64,000 nucleotides of DNA, from assembly GCF_003634015.1 (NCBI RefSeq), contig NZ_RBII01000002.1, forward strand, positions 771,597 to 835,596. The letters are read 5' to 3'. Source of the stretch: Litorimonas taeanensis. Lineage in GTDB: Bacteria > Pseudomonadota > Alphaproteobacteria > Caulobacterales > Maricaulaceae. The notes under the pieces are model-generated. The model did not search any database. It saw only the letters and a list, made by a program, of their open reading frames with translations, and had not been told where the DNA came from. The position numbers and the translations under genes are program-made. Of this stretch, positions 50,376 through 56,757 are shown piece by piece. Each line of letters opens with the position of its first letter. The first letter of the stretch is position 1.

Positions 50376-50412
50376 ATAGGTTTTGCCGATGGTTGTTATT
50401 GAATAAATCGAT
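50376..50412 (+). promoter_or_regulatory. OxyR operator upstream of katG
   Basis: The sequence fits the OxyR consensus of four half-sites at 11-base steps: ATAG 50376-50379, CGAT 50387-50390, ATTG 50398-50401 and CGAT 50409-50412, giving two ATAG-N7-CTAT-like units separated by 7 bases. Outside the central 7-base spacer it matches the site at oxyR in 26 of 30 positions. It ends where a promoter-like -35 starts. Confidence 0.75.
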
Positions 50413-50441: not shown

Positions 50442-50473
50442 TTGCTCATAATTATTCTATCGGAGAAAGATAA

Positions 50474-52690
<2,217 letters not shown>

Positions 52691-53779: not shown

Positions 53780-54685
53780 TTACTCGGTCTTGACGCTCTC
53801 TGGTAGGCCCTTACGAATAATATCAGCCAAAGCCCTGACGGCTTTGACTCTTGGAAATTGTTTTCGATAGGTCAAATATATTTGCCGCGCCGCGCCCTTA
53901 TCAGACAGCTCTCTGGAGGACAGGTCTAGGTCATGAGTCCAGCCTCCTCGCATGGCAAGCGCTGGTACCAAAGTCACGCCTTGGCCCGAGGCCACTAAAT
54001 TTATCAGTGTTTCAAGGCTTGTGGCGCGCAGGCTTTGGCGACGCCGTTTTTGCGGTGGGCGGCAAATGGAAAGCGCCTGATCGCGAAAACAATGCCCTTC
54101 GGTTAGCAGCAGCACATCCTCATCTTTTACGTCCGTCATAGAAACAGTCTCTGATGAGTCCAATATATGGCCCTTTGGAAAAATGAGCCAAAAGGGTTCT
54201 GAATATAATTCAATTGCAGTCAGGCTCTCATCTTCGGGCGGGGTGGCCAACACGGCTACATCTAATTCCCCTGATATTAAGGCCTCTATCAGTCGATCTG
54301 TAATATCTTCGCGGTAATTCACAGAAAGGTTCTTTAATTCTGATTGAATATTTCTGACGAAACGCGGGATAAGATAGGGCGCGACTGTGGGTATCAAGCC
54401 CAGTGAAATTGTTCCAGCGAGCGGATCTTGCGCGGCGGCCGCGACAGATTTAATGCGCCTCGCCGCGTCAGTGGCTTCGCGCGCAATGGTAATTATCTCT
54501 TTGCCGGTATCGGTGACGCGAATGCCTTTATGGCTTCGCTCGAATAAAATAACGCCTAGCTGTTCTTCGAGTTTTTTAATTTGACCTGACAATGTTGGCT
54601 GACTGACAAAGCAGGCTTCTGCGGCTTTGCCAAAATGTTTGAAATCCGCAACGGCGCAAATATATTCAAGGTCACGTAATGTCAT
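53780..54685 (-). CDS. oxyR: Peroxide-sensing LysR-family regulator OxyR
   Basis: A regulator of 301 residues. The N-terminal LysR helix-turn-helix begins MTLRDLEYICAVADFKHFGKAAEACFVSQPTLSGQIKKLEEQLGV. The redox pair is Cys199 and Cys208 in EGHCFRDQALSIC, numbered and spaced as in E. coli OxyR, so it should form an intramolecular disulphide with H2O2. Together with katG, 1.1 kb away, this makes a peroxide response pair. An OxyR-type operator ends only 3 bases before the start codon, suggesting autorepression and a short or absent leader. Confidence 0.95.
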   Translation of the reverse strand: MTLRDLEYICAVADFKHFGKAAEACFVSQPTLSGQIKKLEEQLGVILFERSHKGIRVTDTGKEIITIAREATDAARRIKSVAAAAQDPLAGTISLGLIPTVAPYLIPRFVRNIQSELKNLSVNYREDITDRLIEALISGELDVAVLATPPEDESLTAIELYSEPFWLIFPKGHILDSSETVSMTDVKDEDVLLLTEGHCFRDQALSICRPPQKRRRQSLRATSLETLINLVASGQGVTLVPALAMRGGWTHDLDLSSRELSDKGAARQIYLTYRKQFPRVKAVRALADIIRKGLPESVKTE

Positions 54686-54688
54686 GGC

Positions 54689-54725
54689 ATAGGTATTGCC
54701 TATGAAAAAGATAGAATCAATCGAT
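54689..54725. promoter_or_regulatory. OxyR operator between oxyR and a divergent transcript
   Basis: Half-sites at 11-base steps: ATAG 54689-54692, CTAT 54700-54703, ATAG 54711-54714 and CGAT 54722-54725, so two ATAG-N7-C(T/G)AT units 7 bases apart. This is the OxyR consensus and nearly the same as the katG site, in the same orientation. On the right, -35-like TTTTAC (54725-54730) and -10 TATATC (54749-54754) have the same 18-base spacing as at katG. Confidence 0.82.
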
Positions 54726-54760
54726 TTTACGGCAGGTGAATCATGTCATATATCAAGATT

Positions 54761-54842
54761 GTCCCTAGTAGAGGCTGATAAAACCTCTTTGAAAGCCCAG
54801 GGCTGCGCTGATAGCGCCATGTCCCTAGCCTTGGGCTTTTAA
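54761..54842 (+). ncRNA. Candidate OxyR-activated small RNA (OxyS-like)
   Basis: The promoter predicted at the oxyR operator would start here. The transcript folds as AGAGG 54770-54774 with CCTCT 54784-54788, then a terminator-like stem AAAGCCCAGGGCT 54792-54804 with AGCCTTGGGCTTT 54827-54839, with GCGCT-GAT-AGCGC (54805-54817) inside its loop, then TTTTAAG. The motif TGTCCCTAG occurs at 54760-54768 and 54820-54828, a C-rich sequence that could pair with ribosome sites. No plausible ORF begins in this RNA. Position, divergence from oxyR and control resemble E. coli oxyS; the sequence does not. The alternative is a leader with attenuator for the next gene. Confidence 0.5.
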
Positions 54843-54895
54843 GACTCATATTGAGCTCTATTTGACGCCACCTAATATTCAGTGTAGTGTAAGCT

Positions 54896-55447
54896 ATGAA
54901 ATCTCTATTTCTAGTTTTGATGGCTGCTGTCTTAATGGGGTGTGCTTCGGCAGGAGACCAAAGCCAATCAAATTATGACCCGAGCTATAAATTGTCTGAA
55001 GTGGCGGTATTATCAGAGGGGCATTTTGGCCTTGAAAAAGATGCTATCACGCAAGCGCTTCGCCCTACGTTTAAGAAATATGGCCGTCCAAGACTGTTTA
55101 TTTCTGGCCAAATGTCTTCCGTTGATGAACCCATGGCAGAGTGGCTATATGGGCAGGGACTGGTTCGCAAAAAGATAGGCCTGCCGGGGCATACCTTTTG
55201 GCGGATAGAGGGGCAGGGGTTACAGGGTAAGTTTAAACCCATGAAGGCGGCGCATCTGGTATATAATCGACAAGACCTTAAGCGCTTAGATACACCATTA
55301 CGGGCTATTGGTGATCTTAATAGGCGGGGGCAAACATTTACGGTCTTTGAGCGGGCACAGGAAGATCTCATAATTGTAACGATCAATAAGACCGAAGATT
55401 TGCCCGAAACTTCTAAATTTGATGATATTAAATTTTTTGAGAATTAA
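54896..55447 (+). CDS. Lipoprotein, diverged DUF1134 (EipA-like) paralogue
   Basis: A protein of 183 residues with a lipoprotein signal (MKSLFLVLMAAVLMGCASAG). The middle shares a pattern with the DUF1134 protein encoded 1.2 kb downstream: ALRPTFKKYGRPRLFISGQ against AIERLFKDRGRPTAYITGE, then YGQGLVRKK against YGKGTLWMKD, and LVYN against LVYG. The shared F-K-x-x-GRP-x-x-[YF]I[ST]G text points to a diverged copy. It lies just downstream of the OxyR-controlled promoter, so it could be part of the peroxide response. The role is unknown. Confidence 0.65.
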   Translation: MKSLFLVLMAAVLMGCASAGDQSQSNYDPSYKLSEVAVLSEGHFGLEKDAITQALRPTFKKYGRPRLFISGQMSSVDEPMAEWLYGQGLVRKKIGLPGHTFWRIEGQGLQGKFKPMKAAHLVYNRQDLKRLDTPLRAIGDLNRRGQTFTVFERAQEDLIIVTINKTEDLPETSKFDDIKFFEN

Positions 55448-56136: not shown

Positions 56137-56757
56137 ATGATGCATGCTAATTTAAAAAAATTCGCCGCAGCCGCGAGTGCCTTACTTTTGCTTTCGGCCT
56201 GCGCCACAGCCGCAAACAACCCCAATTCAAATTCAGATATACGTGAGGCCCAAGCCAAGGCTGGACAAGAAGCCAGTAGCTATAATGAAAGCGAGCTTGT
56301 GGCCGCTGTCTCTACACATCTAGGCGTTACAAGCGAAAGCGCGGCTTCGGCAATTGAGCGCCTTTTCAAAGATCGCGGTCGCCCAACGGCCTATATTACA
56401 GGCGAGGAAACGGGCGGCGCGCTGACGGTAGGTGTGCGCTATGGCAAAGGTACGCTTTGGATGAAAGATGGCCGTACGGAAGAGGTTTATTGGCAAGGCC
56501 CAACAGTGGGTTTTGATGTTGGCGCGGATGCGGGCAAGGTCTTTACATTGGTTTATGGTTTGAATGACCCCAATTATGTATTCCAGCGTTTCCCTGGCGT
56601 TGATGGTTCGGCCTATTTGGTGGCGGGTATGTCTATTAATTACCAACGCGCAAATGGCGTGACACTTGCGCCTATTCGTACGGGTGTTGGCCTTCGTCTT
56701 GGCGCTAATGTCGGTTATACGAGCTATACACGGAAGCGGAAAATTCTACCGTTTTAG
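56137..56757 (+). CDS. EipA-family (DUF1134) envelope protein
   Basis: A protein of 206 residues. The signal peptide ends with a lipobox-like LLLLSAC. The DUF1134 domain reads SAASAIERLFKDRGRPTAYITGEETGGALTVGVRYGKGTLWMKDG, WQGPTVGFDVGADAGKVFTLVYGLNDPNYVFQRFPGVDGSAYLVAGMSINYQ and ends TGVGLRLGANVGYTSYTRKRKILPF. EipA of Brucella is a periplasmic small-beta-barrel protein needed for envelope integrity. Here a Cys in the signal region suggests a lipid anchor. It converges on the next gene. Confidence 0.9.
   Translation: MMHANLKKFAAAASALLLLSACATAANNPNSNSDIREAQAKAGQEASSYNESELVAAVSTHLGVTSESAASAIERLFKDRGRPTAYITGEETGGALTVGVRYGKGTLWMKDGRTEEVYWQGPTVGFDVGADAGKVFTLVYGLNDPNYVFQRFPGVDGSAYLVAGMSINYQRANGVTLAPIRTGVGLRLGANVGYTSYTRKRKILPF

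Follow-up and report, generated by a model that had tools for sequence, protein, structure and literature searches.

The window analysed here, a stretch of 64,000 nt, holds an oxyR gene (53780–54685, minus strand) for a LysR-family regulator of 301 aa, divergent from a predicted small RNA unit on the plus strand. The oxyR product carries the Pfam HTH_1 and LysR_substrate domains, has OxyR as its top NCBIfam match (252 bits, under the model cut-off of 329) and OxyR 4x6g as its top solved-structure match, and contains EGHCFRDQALSIC, in which the cysteine spacing is presumably that of the E. coli redox pair. Beyond the unit lies an EipA-like lipoprotein gene (54896–55447, plus strand; Pfam EipA at 28.7 bits against a cut-off of 30.8, the lipoprotein assignment coming from its N-terminus), belonging to a cluster ordered EipA-like / 189-aa / EipA, where the EipA-like gene and the full EipA gene (56137–56757, by Pfam) stand two genes apart. 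A katG gene (50474–52690, plus strand; NCBIfam TIGR00198 above cut-off) is found elsewhere in the window, with an OxyR operator of its own (50376–50412, plus strand).

The oxyR-side operator, ATAGGTATTGCCTATGAAAAAGATAGAATCAATCGAT (54689–54725, plus strand), starts, on the strand opposite to oxyR, three bases past the oxyR start codon; it has four ATAG/CTAT-type quarter sites. With 15 of 16 matches to ATAG-N7-CTAT-N7-ATAG-N7-CTAT, which we take to be the E. coli-type OxyR operator pattern, it deserves the description of consensus-type that a sequence-only reading had given it. The katG site has 3 mismatches, and these two are the only places in the 64 kb within 3 mismatches of the pattern; shuffles of the 64 kb hold 0.14 matches on average, and two were reached in 1 of 100. 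A matrix trained on 27 katG operators, all from other genomes (9 with katG apart from oxyR, 18 with katG and oxyR divergent) and excluding the window's sites as well as those of the four other units described below, gives the oxyR-side operator 37.5 bits, higher than any other place on either strand of the window, where the background has a mean of −42.6 and an sd of 11.3. The katG site is second at 30.4 bits and the next place reaches 8.3, with the two operators scoring 18.0 and 10.6 respectively on their other strands. Genome-wide, a pattern shaped on the oxyR-side site (with its CGAT end) recovers that site itself (plus strand 0 mismatches, minus strand 2) and three more, one at 1 mismatch and two at 2, the katG site being one of these two; up to 3 mismatches it yields 46 matches vs 29 for the reversed pattern, and so only near-perfect matches are meaningful.

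Predicted promoter and RNA

Directly abutting the operator end is a −35-like TTTACG (54726–54731), followed after a 17-nt spacer by a −10-like TATATC (54749–54754), both on the plus strand. The distance from operator end to −10-like start is 24 nt both here and at katG, where the hexamer is TATACC, and in this the proposed likeness to the katG promoter geometry proved correct. At the −35-like position TTTACG recurs in three relatives (G070, G071 and G076) and TATACA stands in a fourth (G015). The predicted promoter is not among the output of a generic sigma-70 scan, as both hexamers match only 4 of 6 consensus positions.

The predicted RNA (54761–54842, plus strand) takes its start from the −10 and its end from a terminator-like stem, and a start near 54761 with TTTT at 54837–54840 gives a length of about 80 nt. 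Its minimum free energy (MFE) is −35.1 kcal/mol (z −4.41), as low as in 0 of 200 shuffles (−22.4 ± 2.9), and for 54760–54842 the fold z is −4.08, with 1 of 200 shuffles as low. The elements foreseen for it, a 5-bp hairpin, an inner GCGCT/AGCGC hairpin and the closing TTTT, are all in place: AGAGG/CCTCT pairs at 54770–54774/54784–54788, and the terminator-like stem with its TTTT tail (54789–54842) encloses the inner hairpin at 54805–54809/54813–54817. The outer stem had been put at 13 bp and instead has 15–16 pairs in the centroid and MFE structures. Its core (54795–54836, 42 nt) folds at −23.7 kcal/mol ahead of the TTTT, although a T run of only four counts against reading it as a terminator, and a loose terminator scan at −16 kcal/mol, matching 63 times on the plus strand and 55 times on the minus, lets through too much to be used as a test. 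The expected duplicate 9-mer, TGTCCCTAG, is present at 54760–54768, in the single-stranded 5' end (unpaired in the MFE structure), and at 54820–54828, mostly within a 9-nt unpaired bulge, and both copies are candidate seeds. A repeat of 9 or more occurs in 27 of 2000 shuffles of 54760–54842; a start at 54761 would shorten the repeat to the 8-mer GTCCCTAG, a length attained by 88 of 2000 shuffles. Rfam gives no family in 54689–54842 at gathering scores, and none up to E = 10 for 54600–54950.

The divergent oxyR slot in relatives

OxyR of the window's type occurs in 50 of 137 family genomes (E ≤ 1e-62) and, among 299 genomes sampled from the order, in 15 (E ≤ 1e-70), every one of them in the same family; the seven named OxyR-relative loci comprise five Hellea, one uncultured Hyphomonadaceae and one MAG labelled Thiorhodococcus (47% identity). 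The oxyR upstream regions compared number 53, from 49 of the 50 family genomes (G113 left out) and from four of eight more distant ones (G056, G021, G024 and G029 taken in; L062, L063, L065 and L067 left out), with genes in relatives called by tblastn with window proteins. A strong operator, meaning at least 22 bits on a threshold chosen after the scores were seen, is present in 30 of the 53. katG is the divergent neighbour in 22 of these 30 (in G135 and G140 its match begins 628 nt from oxyR), the matrix scores of these katG-facing sites being partly circular as most of them trained the matrix. Five of the 30, those of the window, G015, G070, G071 and G076, face a hairpin unit. One further region with a strong operator (G087) ends after 82 nt, and two others, G084 (L088, 28.8 bits) and G085 (L090, 22.9 bits), show the operator with neither a unit nor katG within 1.5 kb.

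The four other units lie in the divergent slot with operators of 26.1–33.5 bits and have an architecture in common with that of the window: hairpins, C-rich unpaired stretches and a terminator-like end. The five were picked by eye first and their ends were set by hand, before fold, C-run and terminator counts were made, which together with the post hoc 22-bit threshold makes all p-like figures given here optimistic. Fold z is −4.1 for the window, −5.6 for G015, −7.3 for G070, −7.0 for G071, −6.5 for G076 and −6.9 for a sixth unit, in G022. Unpaired runs of 4–6 C are found in the four other units, and the unpaired parts of all six, G022 included, total 80 C vs 16 G, the window unit being the least C-rich with 8 C vs 5 G. 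Composition-keeping shuffles of the six reach the C excess at frequencies of 0.09 to 1.0, and for the longest run of unpaired C the frequencies are 0.05 to 0.55, so that the signal is one of strand-biased composition in loops rather than of placement beyond composition. An MFE of −30 or lower with two unpaired CCC runs is seen in 0.17% of 6000 windows of 95 nt taken at random from the same loci and in 5 of the 6 units (80–108 nt, G022 included), G015 having one run. Applied as one rule to the 53 regions, this combination picks out 4 of 5 units (G015 fails), 1 of 22 katG-facing regions and 3 of 26 others, and a terminator-like hairpin picks out 4 of 5 units (G071 fails), 0 of 22 and 3 of 26, with G022 among the three others both times. 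The terminator-like end of G071 is recognised by eye and fold only, owing to a GC between stem and T run. Around its C run the G076 unit repeats a 9-mer, GCTCCCCTC (15 of 2000 shuffles); the other four of the six have no such C-run repeat, the 8-mer that G070 repeats being poor in C by comparison with a C run. The repeats in the window (TGTCCCTAG) and in G076 point to duplicated seeds.

The G022 unit itself (L102:5454–5548) has two hairpins with GCCCCTC and CACCCCTT in their loops and a terminator-like end, stands beside a distant oxyR and is without a recognisable OxyR operator (4.0 bits).

At the level of sequence these units scarcely align beyond the pair G071 and G076. A blastn of 54686–54895 against 59 relatives returns short matches only, the best being 31 nt (E 0.001) at the G015 operator, and a single alignable RNA family was rejected, since MAFFT of the five units leaves six invariant columns of 129. 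G071 and G076 have identical second stems (CTCCGGTCAC/GTGACCGGAG) and many further columns in common. Their first stems, AAGAACGG/CCGTTCTT in G071 vs AAAGCGCG/CGCGCTTT in G076 with the loop edges aligned by hand, differ in five of eight pairs, and at those five the pairing is kept through changes on both sides; as MAFFT aligned these stems otherwise and RNAalifold omitted them, this is a by-eye comparison and not tested covariation. A covariance model built from the two takes its 11 pairs from the second stem alone, and among 137 family genomes it finds its two training sequences strongly, plus G149 at E 0.08, and so no additional convincing unit. The expectation that relatives would conserve both stems and the 9-mer thus held in part: the slot again holds hairpins that have C-rich unpaired stretches, but neither the stem sequences nor TGTCCCTAG are conserved.

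On an OxyR tree, whose bootstrap is not settled and which has some long branches, the five unit genomes fall within a group of 12 rows with support 82/85. The seven unit-less rows of this group have operator scores from −10.9 to 14.4 bits (G003 −10.9, G028 7.3, G072 14.4, G032 −1.0, G073 −3.2, G136 −1.3 and G068 −1.7). The unit label changes 4 times on the tree, and 49 of 500 shuffles do so as few times, so the tree alone gives no proof of a single unit origin. katG is present somewhere in the genome in 12 of 12 genomes checked, and for 11 of 12 copies (the katG fragments of G068 being left out) the best upstream operator match is 12–15 of 16; as the low-matrix oxyR regions of G028 and G072 also reach 12 of 16, the katG copies at 12 (G072, G070 and G022) are weak evidence. 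It would appear that katG has retained an OxyR site of its own, with an RNA in the divergent slot held elsewhere by katG. Derivation of the unit from a katG remnant found no support: in a blastn of 54726–54895 against 37 katG-bearing loci the best match is 14 nt on the reverse strand (E 0.077) and the rest have E ≥ 1.2, with 1.2 also the best of a reversed-sequence control, though a query this short cannot exclude a remnant.

In G071 (L119) the katG operator is preceded by some dozen consecutive C, roughly 160–175 nt ahead of the katG match.

Proposed action and other readings

Taken together, the unit probably encodes an OxyR-activated non-coding RNA of about 80 nt that has its own terminator and pairs in trans via C-rich stretches. 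Oxidised OxyR just upstream of the −35 would recruit RNA polymerase to the weak promoter, and the transcript would end at its own intrinsic terminator. The seeds would be the two copies of GUCCCUAG, one single-stranded at the 5' end and one in the bulge of the terminator stem, and such C-rich seeds would pair in trans with G-rich mRNA sites, most simply Shine-Dalgarno regions, adding a post-transcriptional arm to the peroxide response. That the RNA is transcribed, induced by peroxide and dependent on OxyR, and how it pairs, is what we infer from this arrangement. Hfq, which assists OxyS in pairing with its targets, is encoded in the genome of the window species. A search by perfect complementarity to the seed brought out no target. 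The 9-mer TGTCCCTAG has five other copies in that genome, and for 0 of the 5 does an ORF listing place the complement at a recognisable gene start. A search for TAGGGAC-N2-11-ATG genome-wide gives 16 matches, one of them the antisense of the unit, vs 21 for the reversed motif, and so is not enriched; one match (L139) precedes a 381-aa ORF, by estimate at about chance level.

The nearest rival to such an RNA is an attenuated leader, with the OxyR promoter driving EipA-like / 189-aa / EipA and the stem acting as a premature terminator under control in cis. As the EipA-like gene begins only about 54 nt downstream, co-directional with the unit, this is a real alternative, and EipA, an envelope integrity protein in the Pfam description, could plausibly serve in stress. 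Genes of the EipA cluster adjoin oxyR in several relatives, whether or not these have the unit, which fits a leader as far as it goes; yet five of those without a strong operator (G003, G028, G072, G032 and G073) retain cluster genes too, and the first recognised gene after the unit varies, being EipA-like in the window, EipA in G015 and of the 189-aa type in G070, G071 and G076. On inspection only some four pairs seem available between the 5' segment and the AGGG of the stem, against a hairpin of −23.7 kcal/mol. Since the first downstream gene varies and inspection shows no evident competing structure, the leader is ranked below the small RNA and judged unlikely.

A still less probable account is that the operator serves oxyR autoregulation only, as the relic of an oxyR-katG divergent promoter next to which the hairpins are incidental and yield no RNA that matters. 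The operator does face katG in 22 of the 53 oxyR regions, the window site resembles those sites, and two regions (G084 and G085) retain an operator facing neither katG nor a unit. Against this, in five species a unit that folds strongly and looks terminator-like lies in the promoter direction, and the seven unit-less tree neighbours lack a strong operator as well; this joint absence of unit and strong operator is a telling point. Repeated or mobile elements typically have strong hairpins whose stems vary, but that the unit is one of these, here by accident, is very improbable, as its own genome (G000) gives 4 matches, namely the unit itself and three of 18–23 nt with E ≥ 0.5.

Relation to known regulatory RNAs

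In E. coli, OxyS is divergent from oxyR, activated by OxyR and ended by a terminator, and its family model is, we believe, RF00035 of Rfam. The proposal of an OxyS-like RNA divergent from oxyR stands as regards the arrangement, which is similar in four further species, and does not stand as regards membership of the OxyS family. OxyS is described as a peroxide-induced RNA whose gene lies in the intergenic region 5' of oxyR and which pairs at the ribosome-binding sites of targets including nusG, with 603 homologues distributed in the enterobacterial clade (PMC5793797). The units of the window, G015, G070, G071 and G076 likewise occupy the 5' intergenic region of oxyR. Unlike OxyS, the window unit has no match to any Rfam family, OxyS included, and the stems of the units vary strongly between species, with C-rich stretches dominating their unpaired parts. 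Judged by operator, spacing, terminator-like end, lack of an Rfam match and relatives, the function of the window unit is most likely OxyS-like, and the unit may be an OxyS analogue, possibly an independently evolved counterpart.

A further comparison is with the Cuckoo RNAs and alpha-r14 (NfeR1), whose motif the Rhodobacter RNAs CcsR1-4 also carry. alpha-r14 is described as three hairpins that each expose a C-rich anti-Shine-Dalgarno motif, with stems differing strongly in sequence (PMC10746234), and CcsR1-4 as following an RpoHI/RpoHII promoter (PMC10253847). The units resemble these in their strongly varying stems and in C-rich unpaired stretches that are kept as a type, not as an identical motif. 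CCUCCUCCC is absent from the window unit, which instead has UGUCCCUAG twice; the other units offer CUCCCCU, ACCCCCC and CUCCUCCCCCUC, of which the last, in G070, comes nearest to CCUCCUCCC. The predicted control of the window unit by OxyR also sets it apart from the Cuckoo RNAs and CcsR1-4.

Caulobacter GsrN uses a C-rich loop to pair with a G-tract in the katG leader and protects against peroxide; it is described as sigma-T-dependent and not peroxide-induced, with BLAST matches limited to Caulobacteraceae (PMC5869019). C-rich unpaired stretches in an alphaproteobacterial RNA are common to GsrN and the units, whereas the presumed katG leader of the window (about 50448–50473) is without a run of three G.

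As for the genes beside oxyR, the neighbour is given as OxyS in E. coli and Salmonella, as katG in Rhizobiales and Rhodobacterales and as an alkyl hydroperoxide reductase gene in Caulobacter, and 45 sRNAs of Agrobacterium are said to be changed by peroxide (PMC11975290). In titles and abstracts of the open-licence PMC literature no OxyR-driven RNA beside oxyR was found described for Alphaproteobacteria, a scope that gives no proof of absence in print.

A broader proposal, to which we give somewhat less than an even chance, is that the Hellea group has an RNA at the divergent oxyR promoter that arose independently of OxyS and would act as a multi-seed anti-Shine-Dalgarno RNA, with fast-drifting seeds in a C-rich unpaired architecture that is kept. 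If true, an OxyR-driven small RNA with its gene next to oxyR would have evolved independently here, which would suggest that the divergent oxyR promoter is able to take on an RNA output more than once. Relatives whose slot holds katG, an RNA or neither would then form a natural comparison, and the group would be a setting for studying how seeds change while the position and architecture of an RNA persist.

Elsewhere in the genome, a site that departs from the operator pattern at one position (L146:1501–1537, that is G000:C1:1086436–1086472) lies beside a second LysR-type gene (L146:469–1407, minus strand), whose product has OxyR as its top NCBIfam match, below cut-off, and is without the GHC...C cysteine motif. 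That gene is divergent from ORFs that on reading look carbonic-anhydrase-like and SulP-like.
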